Below are positions 9,776 to 29,061 of a stretch of 47,498 nt of DNA, in pieces. The notes under the pieces are model-generated. The model was not told the origin of the DNA. It searched no databases and saw only the letters and a program-made list of their open reading frames with translations. How positions within the stretch are numbered: the stretch's first letter is position 1; each line of letters opens with the position of its first letter. A program made the position numbers and the translations under genes. The stretch lies in the NCBI GenBank assembly GCA_945861155.1, contig CAMATN010000026.1:1-47498 (forward strand), in the 5' to 3' direction. The DNA is from Rhizobium sp. Q54 (GTDB lineage: Bacteria > Pseudomonadota > Alphaproteobacteria > ATCC43930 > CGMCC-115725).

Positions 9776-10297
9776 GTCTGATGCGCGGATCGGACATCGC
9801 CGTGGGTTTTGTCATCGGGAACGAAGCGACGGCCATCGGAGCCCGGCTCGCCCGACCGCCATATCGCCTGCTGGGGTTTGAGGCGATTGCGGCATATTGG
9901 AACAAACCAATCCGCGGCAAGGACGATCCAGCGCCGATCCGTAGGGATGAACGGCCACCCCCACGTGCGACCGGAGATTGCCCATACCGCGCCCTCTCGT
10001 GCAACAATCTTGCGGCCGGCGGGTACATGGCGCGCTCGTCGCAGCGAAACCCCACTGCTATCGATCGTCGGCGGCCGGGAAGGACCTGAAGGACCCACGC
10101 GGATCCCTAATTCGTGAATCGTACTTGCCATGATGCCCACCCATCATCTTGTCATACCGGCGAAGGCCGGTATCCACGGCAGAAATGGATTCCGGCCTTC
10201 GCCGGAATGACGAGGTGGGTGTGAAGGGCGATTCCAACCCAATAGGACCCAGAAGGACCCCCATGGAGGATTCGATGGCCCAGCAAGGTGAACGACG
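9770..10297. other. Intergenic stretch without a convincing gene
   Basis: 528 bp between kup and the PfpI-like gene, which diverge. Short open frames exist on both strands but have no ribosome binding site, no recognisable domain and low-complexity Arg/Pro composition. The visible content is a pair of palindromic repeats at 10151-10213 and a few short GGACC repeats flanking it (10078-10096 and 10241-10261). Promoters for both flanking transcripts should lie here; none could be assigned. Confidence 0.6.
10151..10213. repeat. REP-like palindrome pair
   Basis: GTCATACCGGCGAAGGCCGG plus TATCCA forms one hairpin and GGATTCCGGCCTTCGCCGGA plus ATGACGA a second in the opposite orientation, 10 bp apart. 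The same core as the hairpin at 2342-2373 and related to the CCCGCGAAAGCGGG pairs at 22597 and 37748. Confidence 0.8.
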
Positions 10298-10984
10298 ATG
10301 AGCGACAAGCCGTTTCGCAGTGGGATGCTGGTCTTCCCGAACCTGACCCAGCTCGACCTGACCGGACCCTACGAGATCCTCGCCCGGCTGCCCGGCAGCG
10401 AAACCTTGCTGATCTGGAAAACGCTCGATCCGGTCCGCTCCGAGCACGGGCTGACGATCCTTCCGAACGCGACCCTGGATAGCTGCGGGCCGCTCGACCT
10501 GGTGCTGGTGCCGGGCGGCGCCGGCATCAACCCGCTGCTCGAAGACCGGGAGATTCTGGCCTTTCTGCGGCGCAGCGCGGCGTCGGCGCGCTATGTGGTC
10601 GGCATCTGCACTGGCTCGCTGGTGCTCGGCGCCGCCGGATTGCTGCGGGGCCGGCGCGCCGGGACGCATTGGATGTCGCGCGACCTGCTCGCCGCGTTCG
10701 GCGCGGTGCCGGTCGCCGAGCGGGTCGTCGTCGACGGCAATGTGTTTACCGGCGGCGGGGTCACCGCCGGCATCGATGTCGCGCTGCGCGTCGCCGCCGA
10801 GATCGCCGGCCAGGCGGCGGCCGAGGCGATCCAGCTCGGCGTCGAATACGACCCGCAGCCGCCCTTCGCCGCCGGCTCCCCCGAGACCGCCCCGCAAGCG
10901 GTCCGCGATGCGGTGCTGGCGCGCGCCGCCCCCCGCCAGCGCGACCGCGCCGAGCGCGTCGCCCGCGCCGCCGCGGCGCTGTGA
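10298..10984 (+). CDS. DJ-1/PfpI family protein, isonitrile hydratase-like
   Basis: 228 residues, ATG 10298, with AAGG about 9 bases upstream. The class I glutamine amidotransferase-like fold is clear: NLTQLDLTGPYEIL (Asp20), VLVPGGAGINP, then the nucleophile elbow VGICTGSLVLGAAGLL with Cys104. The Asp and the Cys-Thr pair line up with D17, C101 and T102 of the Pseudomonas isonitrile hydratase InhA, which hydrates isonitriles to N-formamides; the true substrate here is unproven. THWMSRDLLAAFGA follows as in that family. The Ala/Arg-rich last 40 residues are extra. It is the first gene of a four-gene unit in which every stop overlaps the next start. Confidence 0.85.
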   Translation: MSDKPFRSGMLVFPNLTQLDLTGPYEILARLPGSETLLIWKTLDPVRSEHGLTILPNATLDSCGPLDLVLVPGGAGINPLLEDREILAFLRRSAASARYVVGICTGSLVLGAAGLLRGRRAGTHWMSRDLLAAFGAVPVAERVVVDGNVFTGGGVTAGIDVALRVAAEIAGQAAAEAIQLGVEYDPQPPFAAGSPETAPQAVRDAVLARAAPRQRDRAERVARAAAAL

Positions 10985-11805
10985 TGGAGTTCGATCCCGA
11001 GGCGGTACGCGCTTTCGAGCATGCCGGCTGGCAGCAGGCGGCGAGCGCCTACAACGCGACCTTCGCGCACGCTTCCGCGGGCTTTGTCGAGGCGCTGCTC
11101 GATGCCGCCGGCGTAAGCTCAGGCAGGTCGGTGCTCGACGTCTGTTGCGGCACGGGTGTCGTCACGGCGGCGGCGGCGCGGCGGGGGGCGGTGCCGAGCG
11201 GGCTCGATTTTTCCGCCGCCATGCTCGCGCAGGCTCGCCGCGCCCACCCGCGGCTTCGCCTCGACGAGGGCGATGCCGAGGCGTTGCCCTATGCCGACCG
11301 ATCGTTCGACGCGGTCGTGTCGAATTTCGGCATCCACCATATCGCGAACTCGGACCGGGCGATGGCCGAAGCACGGCGGGTGCTGCGGCCCGGCGGCCGG
11401 TTCGCGATCACGACGTGGGCGGCGCCGACCGAAAACGTCGCCTGGCGGCTATTGTTAGATGCGATCGGCGCGCATGGCGATTTGCACGCGGCGCGGGCGC
11501 CACCGTCAGGCGGCAACCTGCAGACCCCGCAAGCGGCGCTGCGCCTGTTCGAGGCAGCCGGGTTCAGCGAATGCCGAGCTGAAGCCGTGCGCCGGGAGTG
11601 GCTCCTATCGCAGCCGCGCGACCTGCTCACCGCGCTGGCCCGGGGCACCGCCCGCACGGCTGCCCTGATCGACGCACAGCCGGCTGCGGCGACGCCGGCG
11701 ATCGAGGCCGCGGTCGCCGCAGCCGTGCTGCGCTACCGCCGGGGCGACGGCTTCGCGGTGCCGATCGTCGCGATCCTTGCCTCCGGCACCACATCGCCGG
11801 GATGA
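10984..11805 (+). CDS. Class I SAM-dependent methyltransferase (ubiE-like)
   Basis: 273 residues. The start ATG overlaps the previous stop as TGATG. SAM-binding motif I is VLDVCCGTGVV at residues 50-60; motif II region GLDFSAAMLAQARR, motif post-I GDAEALPYADRSFDAVVSNF (about 100-118) and motif III RVLRPGGRFAITTWA are all present, the layout of small-molecule C/O-methyltransferases of the Methyltransf_11 type. The extra C-terminal 100 residues probably form the substrate lid. It ends in an ATGA overlap with the flavoprotein gene, so the product is likely made in step with the redox pair. Substrate unknown. Confidence 0.9.
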   Translation: MEFDPEAVRAFEHAGWQQAASAYNATFAHASAGFVEALLDAAGVSSGRSVLDVCCGTGVVTAAAARRGAVPSGLDFSAAMLAQARRAHPRLRLDEGDAEALPYADRSFDAVVSNFGIHHIANSDRAMAEARRVLRPGGRFAITTWAAPTENVAWRLLLDAIGAHGDLHAARAPPSGGNLQTPQAALRLFEAAGFSECRAEAVRREWLLSQPRDLLTALARGTARTAALIDAQPAAATPAIEAAVAAAVLRYRRGDGFAVPIVAILASGTTSPG

Positions 11806-13475
11806 CCCATCTCGAAACCGACATCCTGATCGTCGGCGCCGGCGGAGCCGGCATGTACGCCGCGATCGCCGCGTCCCGCGCCGGGGCGACGCGGGTGCTG
11901 CTCGCCGACAAGAGCCTGGTCGGCCGCGGCGGCGCGACGGTGATGGCGCAGATGACGGTGGCGGCGGCGCTTGGAGAGGAATGCCCGGACGACTGGACCG
12001 CGCATTTCGACGACACGCTCGCCTCGGGCCGAGGGCTGTGCGACGAGGCGCTCGCCGCGGTGCTGTGCCAGGAGGCGCCGGCCCGCATCCGCGAGATGGC
12101 GGAGTGGCGGGTCGGCTGGGCCCGGCGCGCCGACGGCCGTATCGCCCAGGTCGCCGCGCCCGGCCATTCGCGACCGCGCTGCTGCTATGTCGATTTTCTC
12201 AACACCGGCCCGGCGGTCGCGGCGACCTTGCGGCGCCAAATCGCGCGTATCGATGCGATCCGCCGGGTCAGCAATCTGACCGTCACCGATATCGTCACCG
12301 ATTGTGGCGCGGCGGTTGGCGCGGTGGCGCTCGACGGGGCGGCCGGCGAGCCGGTGACGATCGCAGCCAACGCGGTGATCGTCGCCACCGGCGGTCTGAC
12401 CCGAATTTTCCGCCGCAACAGCGCCTCGGCCAATATGGGCGGCGACGGCTATGCGCTGGCGCTTGCCGCTGGCGCCGATCTGGTCGACATGGAGTTCGTG
12501 CAATTCTTCCCGATCGGTCATCTGGCGCCGCGTCTTGTCGGCATGGACCCGATCATGTGGGACCCGTTCCGCTACAAGCTCGGCGGAAGGCTGCTCGACG
12601 GCAATGGCCGCGAATTCCTGGCCGATTACGGCAGCGACGAGACCAGCGGCTACACCACCCCGCGCGACATCGCAACCTATGCGATCCATAAGGAGGTCGC
12701 GGCCGGGCGCGGTTCGCCGCATGGCGGGGTGTATCTGTCGTTCGCGCATGTGAAGCGGGCCGCGCTCGAAGCGGCGTTCGGCCCGGTCATCGAAAGGCTG
12801 GCCCGGAACGGCATCGATCTGGTACGCATGCCGGTCGAGGTCGCCCCGATCGCGCACTATCAGATGGGGGGCATCGCGGTCGACGAGGGGATGGCGAGCC
12901 GGGTACCGGGCCTCTACGCGGCGGGCGAGGCGACGGGCGGCGCCAATGGCGCCAACCGGCTGTCGGGCAACGCGATCCCCGAGGCGCTGGTGTTCGGCGA
13001 GCGCGCCGGCCGGTTCGCCGCCGCTTACGCCGCGACGCACCGACCGGGGTGGGACCGGCGGCTCGGCGCGGAGGCGCTCGCTCGCATCCGCAGCCTCGCC
13101 GATGGAAGGCAGGGCGACATCGGCGCCGCGGTGCTGCTCGACGAATTGCGCGAGCTGATGTGGCGAGAGGTCGGCCCGTTCCGCACCGCGGCGGGGCTCG
13201 GCCGCGCGCTCTTCCGGCTCGGCGAAATGCGCGCCGCCTTGCCGGAGCTGGCGATCGCGCCGGGTCGCGTTTGCAACGCGACGCTGGCGGATTGGTTCGA
13301 TCTGCGCGCGAGCCTCTTGGCCGCCGAGGCGGTGACGCGCGCGGCACTGGCGCGCACTGAAAGCCGCGGCGCCCATCAGCGCGAGGATTTCCCCGACAGC
13401 GATCCCGCCTGGGCCAGCCGCCAGCATGTGAGCATGCGGTCGGACGGCATGATCCTGGTCGGGTCCTCGCCGTGA
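11802..13475 (+). CDS. FAD-binding subunit of a fumarate reductase/succinate dehydrogenase-like oxidoreductase
   Basis: 557 residues, start ATG 11802 inside an ATGA overlap. The N-terminus (TDILIVGAGGAGMYAAIAAS, residues 6-25) is the dinucleotide fold, and the C-terminal half has HYQMGGI and GEATGGANGANRLSGNAIPE, the FAD-binding signatures of the SdhA/FrdA/NadB/AprA family. The His that carries covalent flavin in SdhA (Ser-His-Thr motif) is not present; the matching stretch is GRGGATVMAQM, so flavin is probably non-covalent. The catalytic loop is also altered: DPFRYKLGGRLLD replaces the usual C-R-G-E-G-G. It is followed, with a GTGA overlap, by a tiny 2Fe-2S protein that should pass electrons to or from it. 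Substrate unknown. Confidence 0.87.
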   Translation: MTHLETDILIVGAGGAGMYAAIAASRAGATRVLLADKSLVGRGGATVMAQMTVAAALGEECPDDWTAHFDDTLASGRGLCDEALAAVLCQEAPARIREMAEWRVGWARRADGRIAQVAAPGHSRPRCCYVDFLNTGPAVAATLRRQIARIDAIRRVSNLTVTDIVTDCGAAVGAVALDGAAGEPVTIAANAVIVATGGLTRIFRRNSASANMGGDGYALALAAGADLVDMEFVQFFPIGHLAPRLVGMDPIMWDPFRYKLGGRLLDGNGREFLADYGSDETSGYTTPRDIATYAIHKEVAAGRGSPHGGVYLSFAHVKRAALEAAFGPVIERLARNGIDLVRMPVEVAPIAHYQMGGIAVDEGMASRVPGLYAAGEATGGANGANRLSGNAIPEALVFGERAGRFAAAYAATHRPGWDRRLGAEALARIRSLADGRQGDIGAAVLLDELRELMWREVGPFRTAAGLGRALFRLGEMRAALPELAIAPGRVCNATLADWFDLRASLLAAEAVTRAALARTESRGAHQREDFPDSDPAWASRQHVSMRSDGMILVGSSP

Positions 13476-13804
13476 CACAGCAGACCGCGCGACTGCGCAT
13501 CCGACGCGGCACGGCCGACGAGTTGCGTTACGACGAATTCACAGTGCCGTTCGACGATGGGGCGAGTGTGCTCGATGCGCTGCTCTGGATACGCACGCGT
13601 CGCGACCCGTCGCTCGCCATACGCTACAGCTGCATCAGCGCCAATGTCTGCAAGGAATGCGTGATCGCGATCGATGGTGTCGTCGACTACGCCTGTACGA
13701 CGCGGCTGCGCGCCGGCGCCGTGATGACGCTCGAACCGCTGCCCGGCAAACCGGTACTGCGCGATCTGGTGACCGAGACGCGACCGCCGCGCGAACGGCT
13801 CTAA
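13472..13804 (+). CDS. Short 2Fe-2S protein, isolated N-terminal domain of an SdhB/FrdB-type subunit
   Basis: 110 residues, GTG 13472 overlapping the flavoprotein stop. N-terminal beta-grasp strands (RLRIRRGTADELRYDEFTVP, then VLDALLWIRTRRDPSLAIRY) and cysteines C54, C60, C63 and C75 match the plant-type [2Fe-2S] domain of SdhB (C-X4-C-X2-C-X11-C), but with one extra residue in the first spacing (C-X5-C-X2-C-X11-C). The second, C-terminal domain that carries the [4Fe-4S] and [3Fe-4S] clusters in SdhB/FrdB is missing. The protein is therefore a one-cluster electron carrier fused in operon with the FAD subunit. No membrane anchor gene is adjacent, so a quinone link is not evident. Confidence 0.85.
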   Translation: MTQQTARLRIRRGTADELRYDEFTVPFDDGASVLDALLWIRTRRDPSLAIRYSCISANVCKECVIAIDGVVDYACTTRLRAGAVMTLEPLPGKPVLRDLVTETRPPRERL

Positions 13805-25164: not shown

Positions 25165-28100
25165 TCACGCCCTGAACAGGGTGCCGGCGGTCAGGGCGGT
25201 CTGCAACTCGGTCTGGGTGATTCCGAGGAGGGTCATTACGGTGCCGTCGGGCAGGGTGACGATCGAGCTGGCGCCGCCACCCGATGATTGCGAGGTCGCG
25301 ACGATCGCGGAATTGGTCTGATCGGTCTCGTTCTGGTAGAAGATGAAATCGGTCAGGCTGTCGAAATCGCCGGCCGCGCCGCCGATCGTCACCCGCGCCG
25401 ACGACGCGCCGGCCACGGTCGAATTTATCGTGGCAGTGCCGGTGACGGTGTCATAGCTGGTCGCGACCACCGTGTCGTTGGTCCCGAACCCGACAGCGGC
25501 GCCGGGCACATTGGTCGAGTGACCCCACAGATGCGCCCCGCCAACCGCCGCGCCGTTGCCGATTCCGATGCGGTCGCCGCCGCCGCCCCACACCGAGTCG
25601 CTGCCATTGCCGGCCATGATCGTGTCGGCGCCGCCGGCGCTGAACGAATTGACCGTGGCGTTGCCGGTCGAGCCCGACAAATCGAGCAGATCGCCGCTGC
25701 CGCCGACTTGCGGGTTGTAGCTGAGGCTCGACGACCCGCCCAATATCGTGTCGGCCCCGCCGCCCGAGCCAATGACGGTGTCGACAACCCCGGCGCCGCC
25801 CGAGCCGACCCGGATCGTCATGCCGCCGGCCGACCCGTCGGCGTACTGGCTGCCGCTGCCAAAGGTAATCGTGTCGCCGATCCCGCCGAAGACCGTGGCC
25901 GCGCCGCTGCCCAAAATCACCGAGACGTTGCCCGCTGTCGCGTTGATACGCGCGTCACCGGTCTGCGCCGCGAAATCGACGATGTCGCCATTGCCGAGGG
26001 CCTGGATCTGTACGGCGGCCGCGCCGCCGGTGATCGTGTCCGTCGCACCGGGGACCGACGAGTCGATCGAGCCGATGATCGTGTGGGTGCCGCCGGACCC
26101 GACCGCGATCCGCATGCCGCCGATCTGGCCGTCGACGTATTGGCTGGCCGATCCCATCGTGATCGTGTCGCCGATGGCGCCGAAGACCGTCGCCGGCCCG
26201 GCCCCGAGCGTGATGCGAGTGTTGGAGTCGTTGGTGGTCGATGTGATCCCGTTGACGGTCGCGCTGCCGGTAGAGTTGGACAGGTCGACAACAGCGCGGA
26301 AGCCAAAGAGTTGGATGTCGAGGTTGGCGCCGCCGTTACCCAGAATTGTGTCGTTGCCTGCATAGATCAAATTGTCGCCGCCGGCGCCGCCGACGATCGT
26401 CGAGCCGGCGCCGGGCCGTGCGTCTATATAGGTGAAGCCGCTGGCGCCGGCGGTGATCGAGCTGAACACACCGCCCAGGATCGTGGTCCTGCCGGCGCCC
26501 CCCACAATCGTCAGATTCCGCCCCGCCGCATGAATAATCGTTTCGCTGGAGTCATCGGCGGCACTGACGATCGAATCGCCGGTTCCGCCGATAATCGTAT
26601 TGAAGCCGGTGCCGCCGATAATCGTCTGCCCACCCAGCCGACCGTCGAGGGTCTGGTTGCCGCCGCCTCCGACCAGCGTGTCGCCGGGGGCGCCGACGGC
26701 GATCTGAAAGTCGAGGTCGCCGAGAATGATCTCTGCCGGCGCGTTGCCGCCGGTCACCGAGTCGGTGACCGTATAGTTGCCGCCGAACAGTTGCATCTGG
26801 GTGCCGGTCAGGAACCCGTTGCGGTCGATTGTCGCTCCGGGGGCGATCAGCCCGTCCTGGAACCCGCTAGTGAGCGTGGGAAGCGGGTCGCCAATCGACA
26901 GCGCGGTGAAGACCTCGATATTGAAATTTCCTGGGACCGGCGCGGGGAGGACGGGGTTGATGCCGTCGTTGATGCCGACCGAGACCGGAGCGATGCCAAA
27001 TGCCCCGAAGACGAAATATCCGCCCGGGGACTCGGCGATCGTGGTTCCACCGCCTCCGTGCGGCGCCAGGAAAAAGGAACGGCCGGAAAAATCTTCATTG
27101 GGGTCGAGCTGGAGGTCGAAGCTGCCGCCGTTCTGGTTGACGTGCAGCACATTTCCGGGGTCGAGGATCGCGGTGCCGCCGCTGTCGAAAGGGATATCCA
27201 GCAGATCGATCGTGGCGTCCGGAACCAAGCCCGAGATCGTGAACGCCGGGTTTGCGGTGCTGTCTATCGTCAATTCGCCGCCGGGGCCGACGAAGGTGAC
27301 GCCGCCGCTGACGTTCGCTCCGCTCTCGAGAGAAAGCCTCGCGCCCAGGCCGGCGATCGTCGTACCGATGGTGGTGCCGCCGGGCGCTACGACTGCGATC
27401 CCACCGGCAAAGATCGCCGTCCCGTCCGCCGTGCCGCCCGACAGCACGACCTGGTTGCCGACGTCGAGGAGCGTCGCCCGGCTCACCGTGCCGCCCGATG
27501 ACACGAATTGGACGGCGCCCGACAGGACGCCGCCCGACATGACCGCGCCGAGCACCGTGCCGCCGGACAACACGAATTGGTTGCCGCCCGCCAGGACAAT
27601 CGTTTCGATCGCGGTGCCGCCTGACGACAGGAACTGGCTGCCGCCCGACAGGACCGCGCCGATCGCGGTGGCGCCGAGCATGATCTGGCTCGCGCCGGCG
27701 AGGACCGTCGTCGCGCTCGCGGTCGCGCCCCCCTCGACCTGCTGCAACCCGCCGCCGCTGACGGTCGTATCGAATGTCGTCCCGCCCGAAAGGAACTGGA
27801 CCCCGCCGTTGGCGACGGCAGCGCCGCTCGCGGTGCCGCCCGCGCTGACAATCTGCTGGCCGCCGCTGTTGACAACTGTATCGGTGGCAATCCCTTGCGA
27901 CCCGACCGTCTGTTTTGCGAAGGCGTAGACGGTGGCGCTTGAGGCGCTGCCTAACACGGTTTGCCCATATATAGAATAGATCGCCGCCCTGATGTCCGTG
28001 CCGCCCGCGCTGACGGTCTCGGTGCTCGTCCCGTTGATCGTGGTATCGATCGCAGTCCCGCCGACAAGCACCGTGAGGTTGGCGACGGTGAAGTTCCCCG

Positions 28101-29061
28101 TGGCAGCATAGAGCGCGGTGGACACCGCCAATCCGCCGGGCTCGACATAGGACAAGCCATTAGCGACTACCATTGCGCTGGCGGTGCCGTAGACATACTG
28201 GACGCTGATCCCGAGCGAGTGCTGCTGGCCGAGGGTGAGTCCGCTGGTAAAGCCGCCAGCCTCGACGATTTGCGTGCTGGGTCCGGTTAAGCGCGAGCCG
28301 AGATCGACCCCGCCGGAGGAAATCAACTGGAACCCGCCGCTGCTGACGTTCGTGGCGCTGGCGGTGCCGCCCGGGTTGATGATCTGGGTGCCGCCCGACG
28401 GGACCACCGTTCCGGTTGCGGTGCCGCCCGATTCGATGGTTTGGCTGCCACCCAGCAGCACCGAGGCCCCGATCGCGGTGCCGAACACATCTTGGATGCC
28501 GTTCGAGATAATCGTCGCGCCGATATCGGTGCCATAAACGATTTCGTGGCCGCCACCACTTATTAAGGTCGCGCTCGCCTGGGCGCCGGCGTCGACAATC
28601 GAACTGCCGAGGGAGCGGAGCCGGGTGTCGCTCGCGCTTGCGCCGGAGAACAGATGCACGACACCCCAATCGACGGTTATCGCGGTGGCGGAGGCGCCGT
28701 CGAAGACTTGGACAAAGCCGCCGCTGGTGACGTAGGTCGCGCTGGCCGTGCCGGAAACGAATTGGAACCCGCCATTGACGGTCGTGCCGCTCGCGGCGCC
28801 GCCGGCTTCGACGAACTGGCGGCCGCCGCCATTGACAACCGTGTCGTTGGCGACCCCGAAAACCTGCTGGATCGCGAAATCGATCAAGACGCCGCTCAGG
28901 GTTGCCGCGCTCGCGACCCCTCCGGCGCTGACGATCTGCGTGCCGCCGCCGTTTACCGCGGCGCCGAGGTCGATGCCGCCGGACAGCACGGTCTCGGTAT
29001 CGCCGAGATCGAGGACGATACCGCTGCTGGTCTGCCCCGAGCTGACGACGAAGTCGGTCAT
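25165..29061 (-). CDS. Large repeat protein: AIDA-type strand-loop-strand repeats plus RTX-like C-terminal half
   Basis: 1298 residues, no signal peptide. Residues about 1-620 are tandem strand-loop-strand units of about 18-25 residues (SGGTASATNVSSGGFQLISS-like; Gly/Thr/Ser/Val-rich, about 25-30 units), the repeat of AIDA-type autotransporter passengers. Residues about 620-720 are a bridging segment (GARLSLESGANVSGGVTFVG, then LDPNEDFSGRSFFLAPHGGG). From about 720 RTX-like, calcium-binding-style beta-roll units appear (GGGGNQTLDGRLGGQTIIGG, then GGAGGDNLIYAGNDTILGNG). The last 40 residues (VTLPDGTVMTLLGITQTELQ) have no autotransporter barrel, so a type I secretion route is inferred. Adhesion to a surface is likely. 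No transport genes adjacent. Confidence 0.8.
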   Translation of the reverse strand: MTDFVVSSGQTSSGIVLDLGDTETVLSGGIDLGAAVNGGGTQIVSAGGVASAATLSGVLIDFAIQQVFGVANDTVVNGGGRQFVEAGGAASGTTVNGGFQFVSGTASATYVTSGGFVQVFDGASATAITVDWGVVHLFSGASASDTRLRSLGSSIVDAGAQASATLISGGGHEIVYGTDIGATIISNGIQDVFGTAIGASVLLGGSQTIESGGTATGTVVPSGGTQIINPGGTASATNVSSGGFQLISSGGVDLGSRLTGPSTQIVEAGGFTSGLTLGQQHSLGISVQYVYGTASAMVVANGLSYVEPGGLAVSTALYAATGNFTVANLTVLVGGTAIDTTINGTSTETVSAGGTDIRAAIYSIYGQTVLGSASSATVYAFAKQTVGSQGIATDTVVNSGGQQIVSAGGTASGAAVANGGVQFLSGGTTFDTTVSGGGLQQVEGGATASATTVLAGASQIMLGATAIGAVLSGGSQFLSSGGTAIETIVLAGGNQFVLSGGTVLGAVMSGGVLSGAVQFVSSGGTVSRATLLDVGNQVVLSGGTADGTAIFAGGIAVVAPGGTTIGTTIAGLGARLSLESGANVSGGVTFVGPGGELTIDSTANPAFTISGLVPDATIDLLDIPFDSGGTAILDPGNVLHVNQNGGSFDLQLDPNEDFSGRSFFLAPHGGGGTTIAESPGGYFVFGAFGIAPVSVGINDGINPVLPAPVPGNFNIEVFTALSIGDPLPTLTSGFQDGLIAPGATIDRNGFLTGTQMQLFGGNYTVTDSVTGGNAPAEIILGDLDFQIAVGAPGDTLVGGGGNQTLDGRLGGQTIIGGTGFNTIIGGTGDSIVSAADDSSETIIHAAGRNLTIVGGAGRTTILGGVFSSITAGASGFTYIDARPGAGSTIVGGAGGDNLIYAGNDTILGNGGANLDIQLFGFRAVVDLSNSTGSATVNGITSTTNDSNTRITLGAGPATVFGAIGDTITMGSASQYVDGQIGGMRIAVGSGGTHTIIGSIDSSVPGATDTITGGAAAVQIQALGNGDIVDFAAQTGDARINATAGNVSVILGSGAATVFGGIGDTITFGSGSQYADGSAGGMTIRVGSGGAGVVDTVIGSGGGADTILGGSSSLSYNPQVGGSGDLLDLSGSTGNATVNSFSAGGADTIMAGNGSDSVWGGGGDRIGIGNGAAVGGAHLWGHSTNVPGAAVGFGTNDTVVATSYDTVTGTATINSTVAGASSARVTIGGAAGDFDSLTDFIFYQNETDQTNSAIVATSQSSGGGASSIVTLPDGTVMTLLGITQTELQTALTAGTLFRA

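Follow-up and report, generated by a model that had tools for sequence, protein, structure and literature searches.

A single-cluster FAD/[2Fe-2S] gene pair, a seemingly uncharacterised soluble relative of succinate dehydrogenase

We analysed a window of 47,498 nucleotides from Rhizobium sp. Q54 (assembly GCA_945861155.1, contig CAMATN010000026.1), in which four overlapping genes encode an isonitrile-hydratase-like protein, a methyltransferase, a flavin adenine dinucleotide (FAD) subunit of SdhA type and a short [2Fe-2S] protein of SdhB type (genes 1 to 4). The unit kept by evolution is the pair of genes 3 and 4, which recurs as a widespread and seemingly uncharacterised soluble relative of succinate dehydrogenase. 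With moderate confidence, we read the pair as a soluble two-subunit enzyme of the complex-II superfamily, most likely an enoate reductase working in catabolism. An earlier note on this DNA had proposed a redox enzyme with a non-standard substrate: this part stands, as the SdhA/SdhB-like pair is non-standard and its substrate is very likely not succinate, while the conserved four-gene pathway does not. Judged by titles and the openings of abstracts, with most subscription journals outside the scope, no account of the pair was recognised in the literature.

Conservation and architecture of the gene pair

The open reading frames of the four genes lie on the forward strand at 10298–10984, 10984–11805, 11802–13475 and 13472–13804, and their junctions, TGATG, ATGA and GTGA, share 1, 4 and 4 bases, bearing out the coupling described in the earlier note. 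The FAD subunit (gene 3, 557 aa) matches Pfam FAD_binding_2 (3.8e-63) and Succ_DH_flav_C (6e-20) and is the core of the conserved two-gene module; the module's second half, the single-cluster [2Fe-2S] subunit (gene 4, 110 aa), has a GTG start overlapping the FAD stop and matches Fer2_3 (6.3e-19).

A contig scan with the FAD protein, in which the best 80 of 269 relatives were kept (56–82% identical) and the other 189 left aside, and a class-level genome search with the 2Fe-2S protein, which gave 11 genomes besides that of the window, produced a first set of 91 loci (80 + 11), four of them being one contig met twice. Adding 31 new loci from two families, with duplicates dropped, gave 121 distinct loci. 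A second sample (n = 39) consists of 20 stretches chosen from 44 places in the family containing Tardiphaga and 19 of 20 places in the family of Pusillimonas caeni; eight of the 39 were already in the first set. The alignment holds 88 rows (79 labelled loci, 8 others and the window), of which 87 are distinct, L034 and L099 being one contig; L071 was dropped, its 2Fe-2S match being only partial.

The FAD and 2Fe-2S genes are adjacent in the 121 distinct loci. All 80 loci found via the FAD gene have the 2Fe-2S gene alongside (as a partial match in L071), and those found via the 2Fe-2S gene likewise carry the FAD gene. With starts chosen by our script, the overlap is exactly 4 bases in 55 of the 88 rows. 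Profile scores of the 2Fe-2S protein separated the family (at least 150 bits) from other proteins (at most 79 bits) in the searches of the window's genus and of the phylum; in two family-level searches (E ≤ 1e-28), matches reach down to 125 bits. Of the 385 genomes in the class sample 12 have the protein, with E values no worse than 1e-33 and the next match at 6.5e-16; it was also found in 2 of 398 of the phylum sample, 5 of 8 of the window's genus, 40 of 198 of the family containing Tardiphaga and 19 of 200 of the Pusillimonas caeni family, and five genomes of these two families have two copies. One locus, L079, comes from a metagenome-assembled genome (MAG) labelled Bordetella parapertussis, a label that may be wrong. 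In a tree made by a quick search with four references on long branches, the pair family falls on one side of a branch opposite E. coli SdhA, FrdA and NadB and the window genome's SdhA, with a Shimodaira–Hasegawa-like approximate likelihood ratio test (SH-aLRT) value of 100.

The small subunit has a single cluster domain. Gene 4 exceeds the gathering score of Fer2_3 and has no other Pfam match, and its cluster loop C-X5-C-X2-C-X11-C (C54, C60, C63 and C75; 13631–13696, forward strand) recurs in 88/88 rows and in 39/39 proteins of the second sample. The earlier note was right about C-X5-C: the spacing is C-X4-C in SdhB and FrdB of E. coli, as well as in the SdhB encoded by the window genome. Across the 88 rows the chain ends 25–47 residues past the fourth cluster cysteine, with no further cysteine or, in two rows, one; there is therefore no second cluster domain, again in agreement with the earlier note, and gene 4 lacks the [4Fe-4S]/[3Fe-4S] domain typical of the iron–sulphur subunit of complex II. 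Its predicted structure (predicted local distance difference test, pLDDT, 91.9) best matches the N-terminal domain of SdhB/FrdB, with template modelling scores TMq 0.86 and TMt 0.41. No anchor-like gene was recognised among the annotated neighbours of the pair, many neighbours being without annotation.

The large subunit keeps the fold and part of the active site. With FAD_binding_2, Succ_DH_flav_C and the catalytic arginine, it has the make-up of a complex-II flavoprotein; the nearest solved structures by sequence are SdhA/FrdA at about one-third identity, and the model (pLDDT 86.6, predicted template modelling score 0.91) takes the FrdA fold (Z 52). The histidine that links the flavin covalently in SdhA/FrdA (H45 in E. 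coli SdhA) is replaced by Ala45 (11934–11936, forward strand), as the earlier note had noticed; the position is Ala in 87 rows and Ser in one. The residues H242, T254 and E255 of E. coli SdhA, which presumably bind the first carboxylate, have become Phe236, Trp253 and Asp254 in 88/88 rows, within a signature QFFPI-x-HLAPR-xx-GMDPIMWDPFRYK-x-GG (12501–12587, forward strand) that 84 of the 88 show exactly and the remaining four with a single deviating residue. E. coli R286, H354 and R399 are unchanged in 88/88 rows; R286 corresponds to R288 in the window protein, and the second carboxylate site to His352/Arg386. The FRYKLGG stretch that the earlier note took for the catalytic loop aligns with CRGEGG of SdhA, and the catalytic arginine lies elsewhere, at R288. 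We consider these features more than chance because they recur in all aligned rows. In the second sample 37 of 39 FAD genes were scorable, those of L208 and L225 being partial or broken in reading at most active-site positions; the three replaced residues were F in 35 and Y in 2, W in 37, and D in 35 and E in 2, and R286 was kept in all 37. The loop is more variable there, with for example GFDP for GMDP.

Two genomes with two copies each hold a copy (L228, L231) with the pocket QFYPNGHLAPRMVGLDPTTWEPTRVKLGG and a molybdenum hydroxylase (Mo-hydroxylase) gene within 0.2 kb, likely a paralogue acting on another substrate; substrates have perhaps diverged within the pair family.

Relation to known flavoenzymes

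The genes are easily mistaken for succinate dehydrogenase, yet none of the 12 proteins checked against NCBIfam (6 FAD and 6 2Fe-2S) reached a cut-off among the matches listed. With SdhAB/FrdAB (E. coli FrdA, 1kf6, 33% identity; M. smegmatis Sdh1, 7d6v) the pair shares the flavoprotein fold, the catalytic arginine, the second carboxylate site and the N-terminal 2Fe-2S domain of the iron–sulphur subunit, whereas it lacks the covalent-flavin histidine, the second cluster domain and a recognised anchor, and has the C-X5-C loop and a rebuilt first-carboxylate site. The best NCBIfam match of the FAD protein is TfrA of the coenzyme M/coenzyme B thiol:fumarate reductase TfrAB, at 392 bits against a cut-off of 718, while gene 4 matches the N-terminal part of TfrB at 55 bits against 385, covering model positions 4–101 of 488; five further FAD proteins scored 371–403 bits to TfrA and 271–316 to the NadB model TIGR00551. 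NadB belongs to the same superfamily and also lacks the flavin-linking histidine, but it keeps His/Thr/Glu at the C1 site, and the window protein reaches 301.5 bits where TIGR00551 requires 452.75. An identity as ordinary succinate dehydrogenase/fumarate reductase, NadB or TfrAB was rejected on these cut-offs and key residues. The two [4Fe-4S] clusters carried by the partner protein in AprAB contrast with the one four-cysteine 2Fe-2S-type motif of gene 4, and the FAD model is 20% identical to AprA (1jnr). We know of no iron–sulphur subunit of NadB, nor of a 2Fe-2S protein paired with the urocanate reductase UrdA. In the 6-hydroxynicotinate route the ring is opened at a later step; its reductase, a homologue of the E. 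barkeri enzyme, can be set beside the pair by description, not sequence. The analogy is that an N-heterocycle is reduced in catabolism in E. barkeri, Azorhizobium and strain SG-6C, as stated in the portion of PMC3511419 available to us.

Two reductases offer precedents for the altered active site. In UrdA, according to the consulted part of PMC7921117, the C1-carboxylate histidine is replaced by tyrosine, the Arg/His carboxylate contacts and the catalytic arginine are kept, and the substrate has an imidazole in place of one carboxylate; the pair's FAD protein has Phe in place of that histidine, with Trp-Asp in addition. The 8-methylmenaquinol:fumarate reductase (MFR) of W. succinogenes has a natural alanine at the flavin-linking position and non-covalent FAD, reduces fumarate and, in the sections of PMC2680327 that we drew on, shows no detectable succinate oxidation; the same sections report that E. 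coli and yeast variants of the flavin histidine lose succinate oxidation and that restoring the histidine in MFR did not alone confer it. Unlike the pair, MFR works with quinol and has a third subunit that associates with the membrane; the window protein scores 247 bits against its 1100-bit cut-off. According to the excerpted text of PMC5953540, the cardiac glycoside reductase Cgr2 is a fumarate-reductase homologue tied to digoxin reduction, with the unsaturated butyrolactone ring as the proposed target; unlike the pair it carries [4Fe-4S] cluster(s), has predicted Tat export and lacks fumarate-reductase active-site residues.

Genomic neighbourhoods and proposed function

Neighbour genes were identified with a home-made open reading frame and homology script, with Pfam searches of selected representatives; calls of absence are uncertain on short contigs, and related loci are not independent in the counts. 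A Mo-hydroxylase large subunit lies within 10 kb of the pair in 37 of the 121 loci, 36 of them within 4 kb, the nearest copies being distributed as 25, 11, 1, 0 and 0 over successive 2-kb bins. Among 11 genomes drawn blind to their neighbours, 7 have such a gene near the pair, in three of four families, where 1.0 would be expected from genome-wide counts of 5–40 genes; the genome-wide genes were counted with a Pfam profile and the local ones with tblastn, so the two numbers come from different detectors. For all 19 test genomes the figures are 12 and 1.39, but eight of these were picked after their neighbourhoods had been viewed and are left out of the 7 of 11; G127, on a short contig, was excluded. 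On the tree of the first set the Mo-hydroxylase label needs at least 14 changes, some possibly due to contig ends, and the association is therefore not one inherited neighbourhood.

Hydrolases of amide bonds form a second group of neighbours: of the 121 loci, 19 have hydantoinase A/B, 7 creatininase and 5 M20 (31 in total), all within 2 kb. Hydantoinase A/B (oxoprolinase family) accounts for 17 of the 19 Pusillimonas-family loci and two alphaproteobacterial ones. Only 8 of the 121 have both a Mo-hydroxylase and such a hydrolase. UbiD is near the pair in 17, and other loci have a luciferase-like monooxygenase with enoyl-coenzyme A (enoyl-CoA) hydratase and acyl-CoA ligase, or TauD, or a CoA transferase. 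Liv-type ATP-binding cassette transporters were rejected as a general partner: 13 of the 19 Pusillimonas-family loci have them within 2 kb, but of the first 90 loci only 9 have them, mostly at a distance (1, 1, 0, 3 and 4 per 2-kb bin). We regard the pair as most probably a catabolic module put to use in several pathways.

A ferredoxin-type gene and a gene of FprA/adrenodoxin-reductase type stand within 2 kb of the pair in L074, L100, L111 and L225 (4 of 121). The L074 protein has DUF3470 and Fer4 domains and is, we assume, a 7Fe ferredoxin; the L111 reductase is of FprA type at E 3e-80. These loci suggest an electron route from reduced nicotinamide adenine dinucleotide phosphate (NADPH) through FprA and ferredoxin to the pair. 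A dihydrolipoamide-dehydrogenase-like gene was also seen within 3 kb of the pair in L087 and L109, both deltaproteobacterial MAGs, and in L085; the scanned copy, downstream of the pair in L109, has Pyr_redox_2 and dimerisation domains and encodes another possible NAD(P)H partner.

From the active site and these neighbours, the most likely function is that of an enoate oxidoreductase whose substrate is not fumarate, and the pair probably adds or removes hydrogen at a C=C bond of an organic acid. An unsaturated acid R-C=C-COOH, or its saturated form, would be held by its carboxylate at the retained His352/Arg386, with R, rather than a carboxylate, in the rebuilt pocket of Phe236, His240, Arg244, Trp253, Asp254, Arg257 and Lys259, as placed by alignment. 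Non-covalent FAD would give a hydride to the double bond and Arg288 a proton, and a soluble donor would feed in single electrons by way of the [2Fe-2S] subunit; in a few genomes this donor could plausibly be the ferredoxin supplied by FprA and NADPH. We prefer the reductive direction and a non-fumarate substrate because of the precedents of urocanate reductase and MFR; the enzyme would then serve as a reductase, less likely in the oxidative direction, in several catabolic pathways, many of them with a Mo-hydroxylase or an amide-bond hydrolase. If so, a one-cluster relative of complex II is a separate soluble enzyme, the superfamily can operate with a single [2Fe-2S] relay, and the neighbourhoods offer testable catabolic pathways; this would also help in understanding how the electron chain of complex II arose, and be of use for ene-reductase biocatalysis.

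By analogy with the nicotinate route and with Cgr2, the order of Mo-hydroxylation, ring reduction and amide-bond opening has an attractive logic, and a nitrogen-containing substrate is possible, hinted at by the hydantoinase, creatininase and Mo-hydroxylase neighbours in other genomes and not by gene 1. A bolder proposal, which we put forward only tentatively, is that the pair represents a new class of soluble, ferredoxin-linked FAD/[2Fe-2S] ene-reductases for unsaturated, often nitrogen-containing (lactam or heteroaromatic) carboxylic acids, reducing a ring or side-chain C=C bond between ring oxygenation by the Mo-hydroxylase and ring opening by a hydrolase of hydantoinase, creatininase or M20 type, independently of 6-hydroxynicotinate reductase. 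Soil and marine Proteobacteria would thereby open such rings reductively.

Several observations weigh against the enoate reductase. The blind Mo-hydroxylase test covers only four families, with 4/4, 2/3, 0/3 and 1/1 positive genomes, and 61 of the 121 loci, including the window, have neither a Mo-hydroxylase nor those hydrolases nearby. Some recurrent neighbours are housekeeping genes, namely phosphoglycerate kinase, glyceraldehyde-3-phosphate dehydrogenase and transketolase, or RNase III with a MiaB-like gene, which we set aside as chance neighbours. The ferredoxin/FprA loci are few and L074, L100 and L111 form one clade (L225 is not in the tree), so that the neighbourhood may be a single arrangement. 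The FAD model is weakest at residues 40–49 and 242–250, no member of the pair family with a known activity was found, and an oxidase like L-aspartate oxidase would be in keeping with the lost covalent flavin too.

Among the alternatives, an oxidative dehydrogenase, which would desaturate a carboxylate and use the [2Fe-2S] protein to hand electrons on to ferredoxin or some other acceptor, is unlikely but the most serious. The fold and catalytic residues are shared with enzymes that work in both directions, some of the neighbours (Mo-hydroxylase, CoA ligase, enoyl-CoA hydratase, CoA transferase) belong to oxidative pathways, and several hosts, such as Bradyrhizobium, are aerobic. The covalent-flavin histidine, however, is lost in 88/88 rows, and in the complex-II enzymes covered by the cited portion of PMC2680327 this change accompanies the loss of succinate oxidation. 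An improbable alternative is an amino- or imino-acid oxidoreductase resembling L-aspartate oxidase, in which D254 would bind a cationic group and the iron–sulphur protein would relay electrons to or from the flavin. The likeness to NadB in the missing histidine and in the 301-bit match, the hydantoinase and creatininase neighbours and a RidA-type protein in one locus would suit it, whereas the first-carboxylate residues that NadB retains are replaced here, the match is far under the NadB cut-off, and NadB has, to our knowledge, no obligate iron–sulphur partner.

Local companions of the pair and other features

The earlier note had thought of an enzyme perhaps linked to the modification of a nitrogen-containing or isonitrile-like compound; in a four-gene pathway of this kind, the methyltransferase and the hydratase would act on the substrate of the redox pair. 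The overlaps in the window speak for such a pathway, as do the two companion genes themselves. Gene 1 (10298–10984, forward strand, 228 aa), a DJ-1/PfpI protein whose likeness to isonitrile hydratase the earlier note had recognised, was matched by its sequence to the isocyanide hydratase InhA (3non, E 4e-72, residues 7–228), which it resembles over almost its whole length; the alignment includes the Asp of LDLTGP and the Cys of CTGSLVLGAAG, which we take to be catalytic in isonitrile hydratase. Gene 2 (10984–11805, forward strand, 273 aa), coupled to the FAD gene, is the methyltransferase of the earlier note, of class I and S-adenosylmethionine-dependent (Pfam Methyltransf_11), and stays next to the pair in several close relatives. 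The pair was found in six other genomes of the window's genus and family. Beside it, the methyltransferase is near full-length in G386 and G783, cut by the contig end in G389 and without residues 45–191 in G399, it has no significant match in G385, and it cannot be judged in G391, whose contig stops inside the FAD gene.

The wider comparison went against the four-gene order. The methyltransferase was found beside the pair only within the window's genus and family, with no match in the 39 loci of the second sample; it is a lineage-specific companion, not found in one close relative (G385) and internally deleted in another (G399). The window is the only one of 90 loci in which gene 1 adjoins the pair, and none of the 39 of the second sample has it there; in the genomes of the three nearest relatives of gene 1 (78–83% identical) a search at E ≤ 1e-120 gave no FAD gene. 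The link to an isonitrile-like compound is therefore that of one genome's neighbourhood. We rejected the four-gene pathway as a conserved unit and consider it quite improbable as the function of the pair; the methyltransferase and the isonitrile-hydratase-like gene look like accessory or incidental companions. Least probable is a decayed or mis-split complex II, in whose favour SdhA/FrdA and SdhB/FrdB are the nearest solved structures by sequence, since the one-domain length and the altered active site recur family-wide and the window genome holds on contig C37 a separate SdhA and a complete two-domain SdhB (a 265-residue open frame), which is also the ground for rejecting the C-terminal cluster domain encoded elsewhere that the earlier note had allowed for.

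At L046:1103–1510, on a contig shared with L167, the methyltransferase lacks the stretch of residues 45–191 and its two leftover pieces are in frame, which may be a natural remnant or an assembly error. The operon is flanked on one side by a Kup potassium transporter gene on the opposite strand and on the other by a gap of 56 bases and an open frame without a Pfam match. Upstream of it, at 10157–10205, a 14-base inverted repeat (CCGGCGAAGGCCGG / CCGGCCTTCGCCGG) resembles a dispersed palindromic element, and farther along the window an open frame of 1298 aa on the reverse strand (25165–29061) has stalk repeats of an AIDA-type autotransporter.

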